From contig MGUD01000009.1 in the NCBI GenBank assembly GCA_001799795.1, forward strand, positions 1-48,152: a stretch of DNA of 48,152 bases. The letters run 5' to 3'. The translations under genes were made by a program, and so were the position numbers. Source of the DNA: Elusimicrobia bacterium GWC2_61_19. GTDB lineage: Bacteria; Elusimicrobiota; Elusimicrobia; Elusimicrobiales; UBA9959. Positions within the stretch are counted from its first letter, which is position 1. The number at the start of each line of letters is the position of its first letter. Shown here one piece after another: positions 1 through 6,559 of the stretch. The notes below the pieces were generated by a model, which did no database searches, was not told the origin of the DNA, and saw only the letters and a program-made list of their open reading frames with translations.

Positions 1-44
1 GACCAGGGGAAGGTCTTTACAAGGTTTCCGCTGGATGTGACGCG

Positions 45-130
45 AAGTAGTGTCGAACTTTGATAGTGAAGCTCCGAACTTTTTTGCTTTTAAAAAAATC
101 GGAATTAAAATTTAAAATTTCTGCGCGCGC
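45..130. repeat. 86-bp direct repeat, copy 1
   Basis: An 86-bp segment recurs without gaps at 2832-2917. I count 13 mismatches by eye, about 85% identity. The first 20 bases are identical, and both copies end in an alternating GC run (GCGCGCGC). An internal CCGA...TCGG pair bracketing a T-rich then A-rich stretch could fold into a hairpin in both copies. It lies 26 bp past the stop codon of the minus-strand membrane-protein gene, which matches the position of copy 2 relative to the phosphoesterase gene. Confidence 0.85.
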
Positions 131-156
131 AATAATTAATTTTGGAAGTCAGCCGG

Positions 157-708
157 CTAACCGAACCTCATTAAACTGTAGAACCAATGCCGACTGCCCA
201 CCAGATGCGAGACGAAGATGCTCAAGGATGGGAGGATAAAGAAAAACACTAGGTTGACCAAACTAAATATCAACAAGGCCTTACCGGGTTTGGGACATAT
301 GCGTCCCTCCTTAATGCCATGAATCAACTTGCTTCCACAAGCACCGATTATCATGCCGACTAGCACAGATATGACTGCCAATATAATCAGCACTTGAAAC
401 AACCACGCCTCCCACCAAACTTTAAACAACCCTTTCTCAATTTTGATCCATGCTAAGTTGATGGCAAAGCACAAGACATATCCGACGTAAGCCAGTATGG
501 ACGAGTATGTAATGGAATTCATCATCTTCCCGCCCTTCAAATCAGTGTTCCATATTTCCATTCTTGCCCAGGAATACCCAACAAGGAACCCAATAGCACC
601 TCCCACAAGTATAAAACGCGGATGGCCAAATAGAAAGAAAAAAGTTGACGCACCAAAAACCAGCGTCCAGATGTTAATTCCCCAGGCAGCAATAATTCGT
701 CTATTCAT
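157..708 (-). CDS. Predicted five-helix membrane protein, unknown function
   Basis: I do not recognise the family. The 183-residue product begins MNRRIIAAWGIN and has about five hydrophobic segments, near residues 10-27, 32-48, 68-88, 101-124 and 143-165, with short charged loops. The frame stays open upstream to 795, but I chose the ATG at 706-708. It lies 7 bp past the stop of the ATPase gene, and a GAGGG ribosome-binding sequence overlaps that stop, so the two are probably translationally coupled. Base composition is more AT-rich than in the core genes. By inference it is the membrane partner of the ATPase. No catalytic motif is visible. Confidence 0.6.
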   Translation of the reverse strand: MNRRIIAAWGINIWTLVFGASTFFFLFGHPRFILVGGAIGFLVGYSWARMEIWNTDLKGGKMMNSITYSSILAYVGYVLCFAINLAWIKIEKGLFKVWWEAWLFQVLIILAVISVLVGMIIGACGSKLIHGIKEGRICPKPGKALLIFSLVNLVFFFILPSLSIFVSHLVGSRHWFYSLMRFG

Positions 709-715
709 TTTACCC

Positions 716-1906
716 TCATGCTCGCGGCGAAAAATTGGGCATTGCACGTCGCATAAATTCATCGAAAAGCGGCACGGTAAACGCCATGTCACCATATTCC
801 GGGCTATATATCATCCCCTTATTGATTAGATTCCCGCGCGTAGGGCCAAGGCTATTCATTTTTACCCCTAATACTTCGGCAATATCGCCTGAGCGCTGCG
901 GACCGGAGCCCAGATGGGCCATCGCCCGGAGGTACTCCTTCTCTCTCGGAGTGAGTCTGTCAAATCGGACCCTAAAAAAGTTTTCATCTAATCGCTGCAT
1001 GACAACCTTGGTCGCCCGCTTCACGTCTGACAATGTAATAGGCGCAGCCTCCGCGTGATTCCATGATTGATACCCCCATTCCTGAATGAAATACGGGTAC
1101 CCCTGCGTTAATCTGTAAATTTCTTTAATCGCTTCTCCGGAAAAGTCTACTCCGGCGCGAATAACAGGATCGCGCAGCGCCTTAGTCGCATCGGTCTCAG
1201 ATAGGGGACCGATTGCCGGAAATTCAAACAGCCTTTCAGCGTATGATTTTGATTCTCCAGCCAGCCTTGTCAAAATCGGGAGACCGGCACCTATTAAAAC
1301 CAGCGGCAACTGCCGCTGCTGCATTTTGTGCATCCCCATTATTAGGGCGCTCAATTCTTTACTGGAAAAGTATTGGATTTCATCAATCAGTATGGCGAGA
1401 GCCGTGCCGCGATCCTGCGCGGCTTCTGCTACGGCGATAAACAAGTTAGAGAGGTCGACCTCCAAATCACCACTATCGGCCGTGCCGCGCTCAGGTTCTA
1501 TGTCTATGCCGAACTCAACTTCGGCGACTTTGACCTTAATGCTGCCAATAAAGCTTTTCAATACGCCAAGCCCGCGCTTGACCTTATTGCTTAATCCCTC
1601 CATCCTATCCAGCTCAAAGAGAACGCGCCTTAAGTGCGGCGCCAATAGCGCCGCCAAGGATTTATCCTCATGGGCTTCCAGTGTTATTGTGTGATATCCT
1701 GCCGCATTAGTCAGCCGCTCTATCTCATTCAATAAAACTGTTTTCCCGACACCACGTAAGCCGACAAGAAGCAAGCTTTTTTCTGATCGCCGCTGCTGAA
1801 CTCTCCCAAGAAGTACCTTTGATTTTTCAATAATTGCATCCCGGCCAACAAGTTCTGGGGGAGGCGAGCCAGCACCAGGTGAGAACGGGTTGTTTATTTG
1901 GTTCAT
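716..1906 (-). CDS. AAA-type ATPase with C-terminal winged-helix region
   Basis: This 396-residue P-loop ATPase resembles the ORC/STAND-like 'ATP-binding protein' group common on genomic islands. Visible motifs are an N-terminal NPFSPGAG...LVGRD entry segment (6-23), Walker A GLRGVGKT (49-56) and Walker B ILIDE near 172-176. A helical lid follows, and the region from about residue 315 resembles a winged-helix DNA-binding domain (LTPREKEYLRAMA, then SGDIAEVLGV). The ATG at 1904-1906 has AGGA about 6 bp upstream. It is coupled to the downstream membrane protein and diverges from a small membrane protein. Its substrate is unknown. DNA-linked regulation or defence is only inference from the domain type and mobile-looking context. 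Confidence 0.85.
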   Translation of the reverse strand: MNQINNPFSPGAGSPPPELVGRDAIIEKSKVLLGRVQQRRSEKSLLLVGLRGVGKTVLLNEIERLTNAAGYHTITLEAHEDKSLAALLAPHLRRVLFELDRMEGLSNKVKRGLGVLKSFIGSIKVKVAEVEFGIDIEPERGTADSGDLEVDLSNLFIAVAEAAQDRGTALAILIDEIQYFSSKELSALIMGMHKMQQRQLPLVLIGAGLPILTRLAGESKSYAERLFEFPAIGPLSETDATKALRDPVIRAGVDFSGEAIKEIYRLTQGYPYFIQEWGYQSWNHAEAAPITLSDVKRATKVVMQRLDENFFRVRFDRLTPREKEYLRAMAHLGSGPQRSGDIAEVLGVKMNSLGPTRGNLINKGMIYSPEYGDMAFTVPLFDEFMRRAMPNFSPRA

Positions 1907-1923
1907 TGTGTATCCTAATCAAC

Positions 1924-1977
1924 TTATACAAAGATATACATAGTTATATCACAAATCACATATAAGTGCATATAGGT
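1924..1977. repeat. 54-bp AT-rich upstream element, copy 1
   Basis: This AT-rich stretch begins 18 bp upstream of the ATPase start, in the gap between divergent genes. It aligns without gaps to 3853-3906, upstream of the phosphoesterase, with about 38 of 54 positions identical by eye. It contains the inverted repeat GATATA/TATATC around 1933-1950, an arm pair not preserved in copy 2. Its position suggests a promoter or operator, but I cannot assign confident -35/-10 boxes. Confidence 0.5.
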
Positions 1978-2044
1978 AAGTATAACCCCGAAAATATGGA
2001 GCAACATATTGCCCGAGGCCGCTGCAATCCGTACAATTCAAATA

Positions 2045-2488
2045 ATGAGGCTTGCAATTCAAATCCCGACTTGCATTATGCATTTGCCAGAGAAAAACTA
2101 TTTAAAGTTATTTATCACCATCCCCTGGATGATTGGTGTGGCATTGCTGCTGGGGATAATCGACGTGTACATTGTCAGCGTGTGCCCCGCCGATTCATTA
2201 TGGCTGATTTGGAGTATGTTGGCGCTGGTTGCACTTGCTATCGGAGCATGTGTAGGATGGTTCTGGGATAGATTGGGCCTATTGCTTCTTTTGTTCGTCC
2301 CGCCTATATTCATGTACATTGGCCATTTGCGCGTAAAACCCTTCTACAGCAATGATGTCGGCTGGGGGTTGCCGGTTTTTTTATATTTGGTCCCCACGTT
2401 GCCATTTTTATTACTAGGCATTGTCCTCAGTGGATTTCTTCACTCGCGACGCGATTCCCAGAAGTTAGCCAATATCGCACAAAAATAA
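2045..2488 (+). CDS. Small four-helix membrane protein, unknown function
   Basis: The 147-residue product (from the ATG at 2045) is strongly hydrophobic, with segments near residues 20-45, 52-72, 76-93 and 108-130 and a basic, polar C-terminus (HSRRDSQK). I recognise no family. The start is uncertain: the frame is open from a TTG at 2009, and another ATG lies at 2078, just before the first helix. None has a clear ribosome-binding site. It is divergent from the ATPase and shares its AT-rich composition. It is followed by a G-rich repeat and a possible terminator. A cargo or partner role for the adjacent ATPase pair is inference. Confidence 0.5.
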   Translation: MRLAIQIPTCIMHLPEKNYLKLFITIPWMIGVALLLGIIDVYIVSVCPADSLWLIWSMLALVALAIGACVGWFWDRLGLLLLLFVPPIFMYIGHLRVKPFYSNDVGWGLPVFLYLVPTLPFLLLGIVLSGFLHSRRDSQKLANIAQK

Positions 2489-2508
2489 GGCGGGCTAGGG
2501 CGGGGGCG
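2483..2508. repeat. 26-bp G-rich repeat, copy 1
   Basis: This 26-bp sequence starts AAATAAGGC and recurs at 3932-3957 with four mismatches. It overlaps the stop codon of the small membrane-protein gene. It is the third repeat type shared, in the same order, by the two modules in this region. Confidence 0.55.
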
Positions 2509-2522
2509 ACGGCCATTACGCG

Positions 2523-2547
2523 GCCAGGCGCTACCGCCCTGGCTTTT
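2523..2547 (+). terminator. Weak hairpin-T terminator candidate
   Basis: GCCAGG (2523-2528) pairs with CCTGGC (2538-2543) and is followed directly by TTTT. It lies 35 bp after the stop of the plus-strand membrane protein, where a terminator is expected. The stem is short and the T run has only four bases. Confidence 0.4.
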
Positions 2548-2568
2548 CCATATTTTCTTTGCTGTTAA

Positions 2569-2796
2569 CTCCCCGCCGGTGGCTACAAGTCATTCACAGA
2601 AAAGACCACCGCGGCGACCGCAGCAGCGGACGCCGGGGCGGTTTTTAATCAACTCGGTGCCACCGGCATAAATGCAGTTCAATATTATCAGGAACAAGCC
2701 CGCGCCGCGAGTGGCTTCAGCAGAAGCCACTGGCGAGCGCAGGCAGAATCTGTAACTATAACAGAATCAACTCTTTGCAGTGCGCGCGGGGAATAA
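2569..2796 (+). pseudogene. Open frame without a start codon, possible gene remnant
   Basis: The largest gene-free stretch (2489-2982) contains a 75-codon open frame from just after a TAA at 2566-2568 to a TAA at 2794-2796. It has no ATG near its beginning. Its composition looks protein-like and helix-forming (KSFTEKTTAAT, NQLGATGINAVQYYQEQ), unlike random GC-rich sequence. A perfect 9-bp hairpin, AGTGGCTTC/GAAGCCACT with a 4-nt loop, sits inside it at 2710-2731. I do not recognise the protein. It could be the tail of a lost gene or coincidental. The rest of the gap holds the 86-bp repeat copy 2. Confidence 0.35.
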
Positions 2797-2831
2797 TTTT
2801 CTGATTAGTTTAAGAGCGGGACACCTTATGA

Positions 2832-2917
2832 AAGTAGTGTCGAACTTTGATCCTGAGGCTCCGAAGTTTTTCGCTTTTAAAGAAATCGGCAGAAAAATTA
2901 TTAATTTCCGCGCGCGC
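2832..2917. repeat. 86-bp direct repeat, copy 2
   Basis: This is the second copy of the 45-130 repeat, in the same orientation. It lies 65 bp beyond the stop codon of the minus-strand metallophosphoesterase gene. The conserved CCGA/TCGG hairpin potential and terminal GC alternation are present here too. Confidence 0.85.
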
Positions 2918-2982
2918 CATTACCGGCCCGATTAAGAAGGCTTCGGACGGCGCTACAGCACCCCACTAGGACAGACCGGCTT

Positions 2983-3813
2983 CTACACCGGCTCCAAAAA
3001 TCTTTCAACAACCATACTCTTCAGGTCTATCGATACATAGGTCAGTACGGTCTTAGCCTGCCCGGGTTGGACGCAGACCGTATTCGCTATTCTTCCTTTC
3101 CATACCCCGCTAATTTCCGGCGACTCGTGAATATGCCCGTGTAGAGTCAAGAGCGGGGCGTTTTCTATTATAAACCGGCTTACGGCCGCGGAACCGACCT
3201 TCTCCCCGGAACGAATCACATCCAAACCAAACCCGGCAGGCGGCATATGTATTACATAAACCGTTTTCGCGGGATTTGCCGGCTTAGGAAGCGCCGCCAA
3301 TTCCTCTACCATGTCAGGCAGGCCCTCGGCATATGCGGGCCAGTCCGGCAACTCGCGAAAACCTTCCGGGGTTGAAAGCAGGCCGGTTCCGAACTGCGCC
3401 TGAAATATATACCCAGGGCCGTCACGCCGGCACCGGTCTTTAAGCCTGAACGGGTAGTCCGTCACCCAGTTCATGCCAATAAACTCAAAGCCGCCGAAAA
3501 TGACTCGCCGCTGCGCAAGGTTTAGAATATTTTTATGCTTCCGGCAAACCTTATCGAAAACCGCGTCATGGATTTTCAGGTCATCGTTACCGGGCAGCCC
3601 CAGCCAGGCGATCCCGGCCGCCGCACAATCAGATAAATGTCCGGACAGGAACCCCTCTATGAACTCTCTTTGGGAGCCATGCAGATCGCCGTCCAGCGGA
3701 AGCATATCGCCGCCGTTAATTACGGCGGCGGCCCCGTTCGTATGAGCGGCTTCCAAAATAAGCCTGTATTTACCCGCGTCTCCATGCAGGTCCGTCACAT
3801 AAAGTATTTTCAC
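2983..3813 (-). CDS. Calcineurin-like metallophosphoesterase
   Basis: The 276-residue product carries the metal-ligand blocks of the calcineurin-like superfamily: D8-x-H10 (TDLHG), GGD36, GND (75-77) and, near the C-terminus, VIHMPP and HGHIH. These ligands normally hold two metal ions for phosphoester hydrolysis. The substrate cannot be told from sequence. There is no signal peptide, so it is likely cytoplasmic. I use the GTG at 3811-3813 because it gives the usual MKILYVTDLHG beginning and follows a GAGGCGGG stretch. A GTG at 3829-3831 would add six residues. It is bracketed by the 86-bp and 54-bp repeats. Confidence 0.85.
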   Translation of the reverse strand: MKILYVTDLHGDAGKYRLILEAAHTNGAAAVINGGDMLPLDGDLHGSQREFIEGFLSGHLSDCAAAGIAWLGLPGNDDLKIHDAVFDKVCRKHKNILNLAQRRVIFGGFEFIGMNWVTDYPFRLKDRCRRDGPGYIFQAQFGTGLLSTPEGFRELPDWPAYAEGLPDMVEELAALPKPANPAKTVYVIHMPPAGFGLDVIRSGEKVGSAAVSRFIIENAPLLTLHGHIHESPEISGVWKGRIANTVCVQPGQAKTVLTYVSIDLKSMVVERFLEPV

Positions 3814-3852
3814 TTTATCCCGCCTCAACACAGACTAAACGCAGATCTTCTG

Positions 3853-3906
3853 TTATCCAGGGATATGCATAGTTACAGCGTAAAATACGTATAAATGTGT
3901 ACAAGT
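3853..3906. repeat. 54-bp AT-rich upstream element, copy 2
   Basis: This aligns without gaps to 1924-1977, about 70% identity by eye. The best-kept block is GATATRCATAGTTA at its left. It begins 39 bp upstream of the chosen phosphoesterase start, or 21 bp upstream of the longer alternative start. A shared promoter or operator is the simplest reading. Confidence 0.5.
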
Positions 3907-3931
3907 TCATATATGCTCCCTGCGTCGGGGC

Positions 3932-3957
3932 AAATAAGGCAGGCCAGGCCGGCGGCG
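3932..3957. repeat. 26-bp G-rich repeat, copy 2
   Basis: This matches 2483-2508 with four mismatches. In this module it follows the 54-bp element after only 25 bp, whereas in the first module a membrane-protein gene lies between them. It ends 5 bp before the stop codon of the minus-strand receiver gene. Confidence 0.55.
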
Positions 3958-3962
3958 GGCGG

Positions 3963-4334
3963 CTACCCATGCACCGTCAGAAGTTTGATTACTTCGGCAA
4001 GGAGTTCTTTAAGCGGCGTGGTTTTAGGGAGAAACCTATCAGCTCCGTGTTCCGTCCCAACGCACCCTTCCGCGGCCGGATCTGAGCTGAATATTATTAT
4101 GGGGATCCTCCGTTCCTCACACGCCCTTATTGCCGCGCATACGGGAACCGCATCGCCATCGGAAAGATTGAAATCCAAAACCACACAATCCGGCCTGTTT
4201 GATCTTACCGTCTCGATCGCACAGGCGCGGGACGGCGAGACCAGTACCTGGTACCCGCTACCCGTAAAAAGCCTATAGAGAAGCTTAAGCCATATCGGCT
4301 CATCGTCCACTATAAGGATAGTCAGCTGTTTCAT
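3963..4334 (-). CDS. Stand-alone response-regulator receiver protein
   Basis: This 123-residue single-domain CheY-like protein has the acidic pair D10-D11, phosphoacceptor D54 (VVLDF), the Ser position in IIFSSD and the conserved Lys in FLPKTTP. There is no output domain, so it would act by docking to a partner or in a phosphorelay. AGAGGT about 10 bp before the ATG is a good ribosome-binding site. It diverges from the XRE regulator across a 208-bp gap. No kinase is adjacent. The nearest is the hybrid kinase at 5.0 kb on the other strand. Confidence 0.85.
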   Translation of the reverse strand: MKQLTILIVDDEPIWLKLLYRLFTGSGYQVLVSPSRACAIETVRSNRPDCVVLDFNLSDGDAVPVCAAIRACEERRIPIIIFSSDPAAEGCVGTEHGADRFLPKTTPLKELLAEVIKLLTVHG

Positions 4335-4467
4335 AAACGCGGACCTCTACCATGTGGACTATTGTGCTGATAGGAAAGATACAGCCTCAGTTCCCGGGCC
4401 TGCTCCCCCGGTCTGAAAACCGAAACCCCCTCCGCCTTGCGAGCCCCCCACATCACAGGTATTCTAA

Positions 4468-4546
4468 TATAGGCCCATAAACCCTGTCAATAGTGCCTAT
4501 AATATCTTCCCGCCGCCGTGAAAATGTCTTTCAATAGTACTTATGG
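4468..4546 (+). promoter_or_regulatory. Operator/promoter region of the XRE gene
   Basis: TCAATAGTGCCTATAA (4487-4502) recurs as TCAATAGTACTTATGG (4531-4546), the second copy lying over the ATG at 4543. TATAGGC (4468-4474) is the inverted match of GCCTATA (4495-4501). A TATAAT hexamer at 4498-4503 fits a -10 box, although no good -35 is seen. A repeat within the -10 box and another over the start codon suggests autorepression by the XRE protein. This is inference from position. Confidence 0.5.
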
Positions 4547-4878
4547 ACAGTTTTTATTCTGAAATTGGCGGGCGGATAAAATCAGTGCGCAAGGCTTTGA
4601 GGCTAACCCAGGCGCAAGTGGCAGAGAAGGCCGGGATAGACACTTCTTTCTACGGGCAAATAGAGCGCGGGGCAAATATCCCCAGCTTAAAAACTTTCGC
4701 GGCCATAGCCGGAGCGCTTAAAGTAAACCCTTCTGACCTTTTCGGGCGGTCCGGGCGCGGGAAGGAACGGCTTTATGAAACCGCAATAGAAGTCCTGTTG
4801 GACGGGCTCGATTATAAACGCAAGGCGCTGGTGCTGGGCCTGTTAAAAGACATAGTCTCCCACTACAGAACAAAATAA
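4543..4878 (+). CDS. XRE-family HTH transcriptional regulator
   Basis: The 111-residue protein has a Cro/C1-type helix-turn-helix at about residues 9-63 (LTQAQVAEKAGID, then YGQIERGANIPSL) and a short helical tail (66-111) that may dimerise. The sequence shows a DNA-binding regulator without a sensor domain. No Shine-Dalgarno precedes the ATG, so translation may be weak or the mRNA nearly leaderless. The repeated sequence over the start codon points to self-regulation, and the divergent receiver gene may be co-regulated. Confidence 0.85.
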   Translation: MDSFYSEIGGRIKSVRKALRLTQAQVAEKAGIDTSFYGQIERGANIPSLKTFAAIAGALKVNPSDLFGRSGRGKERLYETAIEVLLDGLDYKRKALVLGLLKDIVSHYRTK

Positions 4879-5005: not shown

Positions 5006-6559
5006 ATGACCGCAAAAGCGAATATCCTTATCGTGGACGACGAAGTGCAGATAGCGGAGATGATCTCCGCCTCGCTGCTGGCGCACGGCTATACCGTTTC
5101 GGTCGCCTACGACGGGGAGCAGGGTGTCGCCAAGGTCGGCGCCGAAAAGTTCGACCTCGCCATAACGGACATCCAGATGCCCGGCATGGACGGCATAACC
5201 GCCCTGGGCGAGATGAAGAAGCTGGACCCGGAAATAGAGGTCATCATCGCCACCGGCCACGGCACCATGGGCACCGCCATCCAGAGCATGCGCAAGGGCG
5301 CTTTCGACTACCTGCACAAACCCTTCGAGATCAAGGAACTGCTGAAGGTGGTGGAAAGAGCGCTTGAAAAACGCAAGTTCAACGACATCGCCAAGGCCAT
5401 TTTCTCCACCATCCGCCCAGAAGAACAGCTCCGCGTGATCATAGACTCCGTGGCGCGCATACTCAAGGCGGAAGAATCCCTGCTGGTGCTGCCGGACCGG
5501 GAAAACCGCCCTTATATAGCCGTCTCCGAAGGCCTGGACGACGACGCGCATAAGAATTCCCGGCTCGCTCTTTGCGCCAGGATCATTAGCCAGCTGGACG
5601 GCGCCGGCTCCAAGTCGGTAATACTGGTGGAAGACCCGGGGAAAGACAAGAAATTCTCGGATATACCCGGCATAGACCGGGTGAAGTTCTCTCTGTTCCT
5701 ACCGCTGATGGAGAACAACAAGCCGGCAGGGCTGATAAACATAAACCGGCTGGAGGACGAGGCGTATTTCAGCGAGGACGACATGCAGCGCGCCCGGATC
5801 TTCGGCTCGCTGGTGACCCTGGCGCTGCGCAACTCCAGCCTTTATCGCCAGCTGCAGGAGACGCAGTCCCAGCTCATCCAGGCCGAAAAGATGTCCGCCC
5901 TGGGCCAGTTGGCCGGCGGCCTCGCGCACGAGATCAATAACCCGCTGTCCGGCATCCTGGGCCTGACCCAGTTGGTGCTGGAGAACACCGACGCCGCCAG
6001 CCAGAATTACACCGACCTCAAGGACATAGAGAAAGCGGTCTTCCGCTGCAAGAAGATCATCGTCTCGCTGCTCTCCTTCGCCCGCCAGGAAAAGACCAGG
6101 ATGGAGCCGGTGAGCATCAACGAGGCCATAGAGGAAACCCTCACGCTCTGCGCCCGGCAGATGGAACTCAAGCACATCAGAATAACCCGCCGGCTGGCCC
6201 CGGAGCTGCCGATGGTGAGCGCCGACTTCCAGCAGCTCATGCAGGTGTTCCTGAACCTCTTCACCAACGCCCGGGACGCCATGGCCGAGGGCGGCGAGCT
6301 GACCATAGAGACCAGCCGCCTCAAGTCGCCAGCCGGCAAGGAAATGGTGATGACCGCCATCACCGACACCGGCTCCGGCATCAACCAGGAGATCCTCAGC
6401 CGGATCTTCGACCCTTTCTTCACCACCAAAGAAGTGGGCAAGGGCACGGGGCTCGGGCTGTCCGTCTGCCTGGGCCTGATCAACAAGCACAACGGCGCCA
6501 TCAAGGCGCAGAGCCAGGCCGGCAAAGGCTCCACCTTCACCATCAGCCTGCCCGTCTGA
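5006..6559 (+). CDS. Hybrid sensor kinase: receiver-GAF-histidine kinase
   Basis: The 517-residue cytoplasmic kinase has an unusual order. An N-terminal receiver (about 4-120, D11-D12, phosphoacceptor D55) comes first, then a GAF-like sensor region (about 135-280) and a short coiled linker. A HisKA domain with H308 in AHEINNPLSG follows, and last the ATPase domain with N-box NARDAM, G1 DTGSGI and GKGTGLGLSV. There are no membrane segments. The ATG at 5006 gives MTAKANILIVDDE. The frame is open back to 4943, but those residues lack family character. With the receiver that follows by 2 bp, it suggests input by phosphotransfer to D55 and output through the partner. Confidence 0.9.
   Translation: MTAKANILIVDDEVQIAEMISASLLAHGYTVSVAYDGEQGVAKVGAEKFDLAITDIQMPGMDGITALGEMKKLDPEIEVIIATGHGTMGTAIQSMRKGAFDYLHKPFEIKELLKVVERALEKRKFNDIAKAIFSTIRPEEQLRVIIDSVARILKAEESLLVLPDRENRPYIAVSEGLDDDAHKNSRLALCARIISQLDGAGSKSVILVEDPGKDKKFSDIPGIDRVKFSLFLPLMENNKPAGLININRLEDEAYFSEDDMQRARIFGSLVTLALRNSSLYRQLQETQSQLIQAEKMSALGQLAGGLAHEINNPLSGILGLTQLVLENTDAASQNYTDLKDIEKAVFRCKKIIVSLLSFARQEKTRMEPVSINEAIEETLTLCARQMELKHIRITRRLAPELPMVSADFQQLMQVFLNLFTNARDAMAEGGELTIETSRLKSPAGKEMVMTAITDTGSGINQEILSRIFDPFFTTKEVGKGTGLGLSVCLGLINKHNGAIKAQSQAGKGSTFTISLPV

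Follow-up and report, generated by a model that had tools for sequence, protein, structure and literature searches.

RNA-gene ends are the classical targets of tyrosine integrases. The closest described systems are genomic islands, integrative and conjugative elements (ICEs) and integrative and mobilizable elements (IMEs) at the 3' ends of transfer RNA (tRNA) genes, with tandem accretion and cis-mobilizable elements (CIMEs), for which the available part of the source describes tRNA-end integration by tyrosine integrases (PMC5704250). In the accessible text on streptococcal ICEs, serine integrases have rumA as their target or sit within another gene, and the tRNA ends belong to tyrosine integrases (PMC4701971). 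Similarly, an excerpt on Mycobacterium abscessus gives 16 of 23 tyrosine-type attB sites as overlapping tRNA or transfer-messenger RNA (tmRNA) genes, and a phage-inducible chromosomal island (PICI) with a serine integrase is said there not to lie at a tRNA (PMC10654092). Here, we analyze one complete contig of Elusimicrobia bacterium GWC2_61_19 (MGUD01000009.1, 48,152 bases, referred to as the window; assembly 1.36 Mb, 66% complete). Its first 5 kb probably represent a decayed tandem array of island units in a tRNA-Ser(CGA)/sensor-kinase hotspot of this Elusimicrobiota genus. The islands of relatives carry a large serine recombinase (LSR) gene beside RNA genes, and the array in the window probably consists of LSR-less remnants of several units, without tRNA or integrase.

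The islands of this genus share with the tRNA islands and CIMEs, as far as the available part of that source describes them, the site at an RNA-gene 3' end, the end restored by the element, an integrase gene adjoining the site and variable cargo; tandem units that keep att sites and have lost the integrase, as in CIMEs, are also found in the window (PMC5704250). Compared with the same text, an LSR stands at the RNA end here, and inverted ends (U3) and a structured sequence (U5), described below, are additional. What differs from the known tRNA islands, judged on sequence, is the class of recombinase at RNA-gene ends. The LSR resembles the large serine integrases of the phiC31/Bxb1 class in its Resolvase, Recombinase and zinc-ribbon domains and in the short sequence shared at the joint. 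It differs from the known serine integrases, in the parts of the sources at hand, in that one LSR family is found at Ser, Glu, Asp and His tRNA genes and at tmRNA genes (PMC4701971; PMC10654092). Integron gene cassettes likewise consist of gene cargo between repeated, non-coding, foldable sites and are exchanged among genomes, whereas here the enzyme is a serine recombinase, integration is at the RNA-gene side and the units are multi-gene, up to ~24 kb. Our literature search, partly of excerpts and outside subscription journals and preprints, found neither an LSR family that targets tRNA genes nor a publication about islands in Elusimicrobiota.

A preliminary description of the window, made from the sequence alone, had listed three repeat types (86, about 54 and 26 bp), each occurring twice in the same order and orientation around different genes, and proposed a frame whose cargo had been exchanged or, as an alternative, an ancient tandem duplication with later replacement. 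All three pairs exist, in that order and orientation, and exceed chance; shuffled controls, by which identities might have fallen to chance level, score lower almost without exception. The 86-bp copies are 84% identical over 89 nt (45-133 and 2832-2920), with a local score of 108 against a maximum of 32 among 500 dinucleotide shuffles. The 26-bp copies (2483-2508 and 3932-3957) differ at 4 positions (85% identity), a score reached by 0 of 500 shuffles, and the 54-bp copies are 69% identical over 61 nt (about 70% had been given), a score reached by 1 or 0 of 500 shuffles depending on the scoring used; the shuffle figures for these two short repeats are optimistic, because the stretches were picked beforehand as those already named. 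In its own assembly the 86-bp repeat was found at these two sites only, a third match (14 nt, E 1.27) being at chance level. The first base of the contig lies only 44 bases ahead of the first copy.

The nature of the 86-bp repeat was revealed by a search of 150 genomes, own included. At E <= 1e-5 it was detected in 18 of the 31 other genomes of the genus, in 3 of 27 from the other genera of the family and in 0 of 91 further out, and the matches take three forms: the whole repeat, bases 28-86 alone, or roughly bases 1-40 alone. Bases 1-32 are the tail of a longer (~640-bp) right-end sequence, here called U, which ends in CTCCG and elsewhere has other sequence behind it. Bases 28-86 are a left end. 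When alone, they start at the last five bases (CTCCG) of tRNA-Ser genes in flank alignments, and at tRNA-Ser 3' ends they lead on to an LSR gene. They are also the outer half of a 134-bp inverted repeat (arms 98.5% identical in loci L042 and L043) that flanks a 1.82-kb one-gene element, the enclosed gene being the LSR, which in L043 matches Resolvase (PF00239, 5e-20), Recombinase (PF07508, 1.8e-12) and Zn_ribbon_recom (PF13408, 3.6e-8). The 86-bp repeat joins the tail to the terminal repeat, as would be expected where a second unit follows a first. This joint recurs in the separately assembled genomes G002, G003, G026, G027 and G038, in some of them deep inside contigs, and two such joints lie in direct orientation in the window, at 72-76 and 2859-2863. 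Single, unordered copies throughout genomes had been named as an outcome that would count against a frame; the halves do occur singly, yet at defined places, namely tRNA-Ser 3' ends and island right ends. A further candidate, the 3' end of an insertion sequence followed by its terminal repeat, was dropped because the second half adjoins tRNA-Ser 3' ends and the enclosed gene is the LSR. In addition, at L048 (12323-12436) and L051 (3982-4068) a common sequence follows the terminal repeat and leads to no LSR; in G038 it belongs to a tail joint, and in G010, which is of a different genus, it lies by the end of a tRNA-Ser(GCT) gene.

The 26-bp repeat is the start of U, which consists of U5 (~300 bp), a palindromic TGCGCGCG core, U3 and a tail that ends in CTCCG in Ser-type islands; the same core lies at the center of the terminal repeat. 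In the first module the 26-bp match begins a ~300-bp sequence (2486-2788) that recurs throughout the genus, and in the second only the first ~28 bases of U5 remain. U was found in 31 of the 32 genomes of the genus and in 3 of 4 sampled from the family's other genera, and in 0 of 23 of the order. Copies of U3 at opposite ends of an island are 93.6-100% identical in 6 of the 7 islands compared (75.4% in G030), against 72.6-83.6% for the best match to another island, save 98.8% between G006 and one G013 island; this likeness fits inversion or conversion between copies, or a role as terminal inverted repeat. U5 is apparently structured, as RNA or as DNA: against 500 shuffles of the same alignment from which the tested fold was derived, cells changed on both sides (40 vs. 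15.4; 0/500) and covariation (0.103 vs. 0.070; 0/500) exceeded the controls, and pairs with a change on both sides (5 vs. 4.7; 297/500) and pair types (26 vs. 27.7; 495/500) did not. Rfam gave no match in the window at gathering scores; in nine loci searched at E up to 1, two tRNAs alone reached the gathering score, and the weak matches, including one at E 0.28 that overlaps U5, were attributed to chance. Part of the tail is open in one frame, which had suggested the coding end of a protein gene; this was abandoned because the alignments of U show indels whose lengths are not multiples of three. U3 often contains a Shine-Dalgarno-like AAGGAGGT with an ATG and a brief open frame (..LGAGA..) behind it, e.g., at L053 4375-4720 on the minus strand, and the frame is not preserved in every copy.

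The LSR was detected in 25 of the 32 genomes of the genus, in 1 of 4 sampled from the family's other genera (40% identity) and in 0 of 23 of the order. Among the 43 LSR loci examined (41 of 50 search places, L042 and the remnant L174), there are 40 in which the LSR end and the 3' terminus of a tRNA or tmRNA gene are 28-70 bp apart. The target genes are those for tRNA-Ser (GCT, GGA, CGA, TGA), tRNA-Glu (CTC, TTC), tRNA-Asp (GTC), tRNA-His (GTG) and tmRNA. Twenty loci extend far enough to either side for the RNA end, together with the flank downstream of it, to be aligned to the joint across the LSR. In 15 of them the repeat at this inner inverted joint starts 5-10 nt inside the RNA gene, and the repeated ends follow the target: CTCCG for Ser, GGCGCCA for Glu(TTC), GGGCCGCCA for Glu(CTC), CCCGCCA for Asp, CACCCCA for His and GCCTCCACCA for tmRNA. 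In 14 of the 20, the locus's own flank pair scores above all 19 swapped pairs. A tree of 33 LSRs, made quickly, with SH-aLRT support only and with one very long outgroup branch, requires 8 changes among the five target classes Ser, Glu, Asp, His and tmRNA (minimum 4) and 12 at anticodon level (minimum 8); targets are clustered on it, with 14 changes over all 10 groups against a shuffled mean of 23.3 and a value as low in 0 of 200 shuffles. Repeated target switching by an LSR family at tRNA ends looks unusual. In L211 (98-1510 and 1583-1911; G003:C72) the LSR is the only one whose 3' end faces an inverted tail rather than an RNA gene, and it looks like a flipped module.

Intact islands show a common order. 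From the RNA side, the RNA gene 3' end is followed by the terminal repeat, an LSR gene converging on the RNA gene and the inverted terminal repeat; onward come an inverted tail and U3, the cargo, U5, U3 and the tail, which borders host DNA. Two complete LSR islands were found, in G019 at tRNA-Asp (~24 kb) and in G015 at tRNA-His (~12 kb). The latter (L176 2896-11394) carries an XhoI-type restriction enzyme with a methylase, an Mrr-type protein, a ThsB-like TIR protein, 8xMP and PD-Lambda-3_B, and the former GajA and GajB (Gabija) and PbeA (L183 15311-18973, L184 1117-3240), in a view of its cargo that leaves out 4 kb in the middle. Five spans between cores were examined together with their neighbors and hold metal efflux genes with NikR (L060), XRE and a HEAT-repeat protein (L112), HEAT and Fic proteins (L095), GIY-YIG and others (L049), and Sel1 repeats and others (L144).

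The site of the window would be tied to a particular RNA gene through the sensor kinase that follows the array, which was found in 25 of the 32 genomes of the genus, own included. A comparison of empty and filled sites, proposed for strains in the preliminary description, was made between related genomes at these 25 loci. In four (G024, G019, G017, G018) the site is empty, with tRNA-Ser(CGA) alone 80-189 bp before the kinase. In twelve (G000, G001, G006, G007, G012, G013, G022, G025, G026, G027, G029, G030) it is preceded by island parts, a term that covers U, the tail, the terminal repeat, remnants of the LSR and cargo of the types found in the window; in G029 this is a U3 piece alone, 2.6 kb away, and in G027 the phosphoesterase alone. 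Five loci (G003, G004, G008, G014, G020) gave no information. Where the site is empty, a hairpin and then the kinase come after the tRNA end ..CTCCG, and sequence of this kind also comes after the island tail ..CTCCG at several of the occupied sites; the outer joint with the host, directly after ..CTCCG, stands before the kinase in tRNA-Ser islands. In G030 a single contig holds tRNA-Ser(CGA), an inverted tail with U3, the core, a response regulator with XRE, ~16 kb, U5, the core, the tail and the kinase. This complete island of ~17 kb is without LSR, and its cargo comprises large Ig-like and M23 proteins. Repeats of ~70 bp (CCGAACTTTTT..AAAAAGTTCTTTGTGTCC..CGCAGGATAGCG..CCACCCC) were also seen between the tRNA or tail end and the kinase, island-free sites included; two tandem copies lie at L049 7494-7633, and others behind tRNA-Ser(CGA) in L167 and L169.

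These relations suggest how such islands would arise. The LSR would recombine the tail-to-terminal-repeat site of the element (attP) with the 3' end of the RNA gene (attB), giving a joint of RNA gene and terminal repeat (attL) and one of tail and host (attR). The crossover would fall within the shared 5-10 nt, so that the RNA gene would keep its sequence, and a second unit inserted behind a first would leave the tail directly abutting the terminal repeat, as in the 86-bp repeat. Read in this way, the window would begin with the tail of a unit beyond the contig start (1-76). Unit 1 (72-2863) would hold a half terminal repeat, a membrane-protein open reading frame (ORF), an ATPase gene, the 54-bp element, a 159-aa ORF, U5, the core, a rudiment of U3 and the tail, and unit 2 (2859-3957, truncated at its right end) a half terminal repeat, a phosphoesterase gene, the 54-bp element and the first bases of U5. 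The left-end genes of a further island (3963-4878) and the kinase would follow. The features are as follows, with tail and U coordinates set by alignment to a single reference copy.

1-76, plus strand: right-end tail of an upstream unit whose body would lie past the contig start, ending in CTCCG at 72-76; blastn to the U3 tail 79.7% over 5-76
72-133, plus strand: left-end terminal repeat, which in LSR elements makes up the outer half of the 134-bp inverted repeat; cut at the TGCGCGCG center, 122-129
157-795, minus strand: ORF with hydrophobic stretches, likely a membrane protein, cargo; overlaps the 3' end of the ATPase gene
716-1906, minus strand: AAA_16-type ATPase gene, cargo of unit 1; Pfam AAA_16, E 1.9e-15
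1924-1984, minus strand: 54-bp element, copy 1, upstream of the ATPase start
2009-2488, plus strand: 159-aa hydrophobic ORF, divergent from the ATPase gene
2486-2788, plus strand: U5, the apparently structured left part of U, with the TGCGCGCG core (2781-2788) at its end; 83.9% against the U5 reference
2789-2863, plus strand: U3 remnant, most of it missing, and tail of unit 1 (2831-2863; CTCCG at 2859-2863); tail 91%
2859-2920, plus strand: left-end terminal repeat of unit 2, cut at its center
2983-3831, minus strand: metallophosphoesterase gene, cargo of unit 2; Pfam Metallophos, E 1.9e-4, just above its cut-off
3853-3913, minus strand: 54-bp element, copy 2, upstream of the metallophosphoesterase gene
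3930-3957, plus strand: first ~28 bp of a further U5, the rest missing; by alignment
3963-4334, minus strand: single-domain response regulator; Pfam Response_reg, E 1.9e-16
4543-4878, plus strand: XRE-type regulator, which in the left ends of islands is paired divergently with the response regulator; 82% in L168 and L208, 34% in L205
4943-6559, plus strand: sensor kinase gene, host-side border of the hotspot, conserved part 5009-6556; in 25 of 32 genus genomes

Relatives of the window genes lie in comparable settings. The response regulator gene stands just inside the tRNA-side end of other islands (L168, L205, L208, L183), and together with XRE it was found there in G030, G013 (a tRNA-Glu island) and G007. 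The ATPase is 93-94% identical in G042, 92% in G054 and 51-52% in G027 and G021; all 5 places with at least 50% identity, the range to which this check was confined (four weaker places were left out), have U, the tail or both no more than about 3 kb away. Against kinase identities of 68% in G054 and 80% in the congener G027, the ATPase reaches 92% and 51%, respectively; therefore the cargo does not track host kinship. Relatives of the phosphoesterase occur in 5 further genomes of the 59 searched, and each of its seven places is next to a tail, next to tRNA-Glu(CTC) (in G031) or ahead of the kinase (in G027). At L237 2696-4289 (G031) the phosphoesterase and a response regulator stand directly behind tRNA-Glu(CTC) in the same order as in the window, and the stretch examined holds no LSR or U. 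PADLOC does not support a defense role for the ATPase (best E 0.0039); the phosphoesterase matches the candidate-system model PDC-S10 (E 4e-9). The two small ORFs matched nothing in Pfam or PADLOC, and among the loci compared neither the 157-795 ORF, at E 1e-8, nor the 159-aa ORF has a relative.

The 54-bp element, with TATA motifs about 10 bp apart and an imperfect dyad symmetry, is of another kind. In the window it stands upstream of both the ATPase and the phosphoesterase gene; it has the same place at the ATPase gene of G042 and G054 and at the phosphoesterase gene of G002 and G027. Of the 9 other loci of the two genes, 4 have it (L055, L056, L061, L153) and L057, L058, L059, L237 and L238 do not; at L057 and L238 the available upstream DNA is short or absent. 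It is absent from the island ends and is not one of them; it is probably a promoter or operator of the cargo. The idea of a generic frame of three repeats was given up in favor of the ends and joints of genomic islands beside tRNA genes. What stands is that the repeats border units of differing gene content and that relatives carry these borders around other genes; what falls is the three repeats as members of one frame. The proposal of exchanged cargo is partly supported, exchange and integration both being what we infer from the comparison of sequences.

Several points weigh against the tandem-array reading. No tRNA gene was found by a search of the window, and neither LSR nor tRNA-Ser(CGA) in its assembly. 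Because the contig starts at base 1 and the assembly is without both, the tie of the array to a tRNA is taken from relatives. Unit 1 is without most of U3 and both units are without LSR, and therefore their mobility, if any, needs an LSR from elsewhere. At 4 of the 25 kinase loci (G005, G009, G015, G028) tRNA-Ser(CGA) is followed by 1.2-5.8 kb of other DNA without U, and inverted U3 pairs within one island are not needed by a simple attL/attR island. Nine of the 50 LSR places were left out of the RNA-gene survey, and 3 of the 43 loci are exceptions to it: L211 has no RNA gene, L239 (37% identical) has none either, and the frameshifted L232 lies 251 bp away. Five of the 20 joints do not start in the RNA gene (L208, L218, L224, L236, L174), among them L218, which stops at a contig end, L224, which has Ns, and the remnant L174. 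A swapped pair scores at least as high in 6 of the 20 (L208, L220, L224, L180, L236, L174), L220 and L180 being exceeded, by 1 and 5 points, by other Asp-type joints. All genomes compared are fragmented metagenome-assembled genomes (MAGs) or drafts in which contigs often end in these repeats, and locus counts are not counts of independent events. The sequence relations, the empty and occupied sites, the adjacency of LSR and RNA genes and the match of tail to target are observed; LSR-catalyzed integration, circle formation, successive accretion and a tRNA-Ser(CGA) to the left of the array are putative.

The two modules might instead derive from a tandem duplication by homologous recombination between copies of U or of the terminal repeat, after which different genes were lost from each, a plausible course that falls somewhat short of being probable. 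In G021 the ATPase and phosphoesterase genes are same-strand neighbors about 40 bp apart beside an island tail, and therefore the modules may descend from a single unit whose two copies shed different genes. The same upstream 54-bp element is kept in both modules, and in G027:C226 a stretch of 28 bp behind the ATPase gene matches the phosphoesterase gene's 3' flank. However, the modules have no coding sequence in common, unit 1 alone has the long U5 and the membrane and 159-aa ORFs, and G031 carries the phosphoesterase alone beside tRNA-Glu(CTC).

Exchange of cassettes at the palindromic TGCGCGCG cores, by the recombinase or another enzyme, would make the system a serine-recombinase analogue of integrons, which is possible, if rather unlikely; it may be a second process besides RNA-end integration. 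Fragments of U begin or end at the core, the window cargo begins right behind the terminal-repeat core, and two conserved kinds of flank meet the core (62 matches sorted by eye: 22 U5, 30 of the second kind, 9 unrelated, 1 contig end), although both kinds could be the two subterminal ends of one element with U3 as inverted ends. G004 has tRNA-Ser, a half repeat, the core, a different half repeat and the tail, without LSR, resembling an excision scar, and in L211 the distance from LSR to tail (~73 bp) is close to the usual one from LSR to tRNA (~70 bp), resembling a flipped module; but scar and flip are single cases, and a palindromic core is also prone to deletion, its activity being only putative. 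An origin of the repeats as the inverted termini of an insertion sequence or of a family like miniature inverted-repeat transposable elements (MITEs) with passenger genes is improbable: long inverted repeats do exist (134 bp around the LSR, near-identical U3 copies within islands), but the position at tRNA and tmRNA 3' ends is fixed, the end sequence depends on the target RNA gene, and the left-end enzyme is a serine recombinase, not a DDE transposase. An assembly artefact or chance similarity is very improbable even though only MAGs are at hand and many contigs, the window's included, end in or near repeats, given the shuffle controls and the tail-to-terminal-repeat joint in separately assembled genomes of other groups.

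Beyond the tandem array itself, a wider scheme may be put forward tentatively. An LSR family specialized on RNA-gene 3' ends might have switched among at least four tRNA identities and tmRNA, its ends repeating each new target; its islands, capped by inverted structured ends, might swap multi-gene, often antiphage cargo at the TGCGCGCG core, and arrays such as that in the window might be exchangeable shelves for defense and stress genes. If the LSRs integrate at RNA-gene ends, they would form a natural series of related serine recombinases with differing RNA-gene targets. The change of att specificity in serine integrases would then become directly testable, because the element end and the target change together in sequence and the tree needs twice the minimum number of target-class changes (8 and 4). 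The islands would be a source of variable defense and stress genes in Elusimicrobiota, and would explain the frequent assembly breaks at such joints in these genomes.

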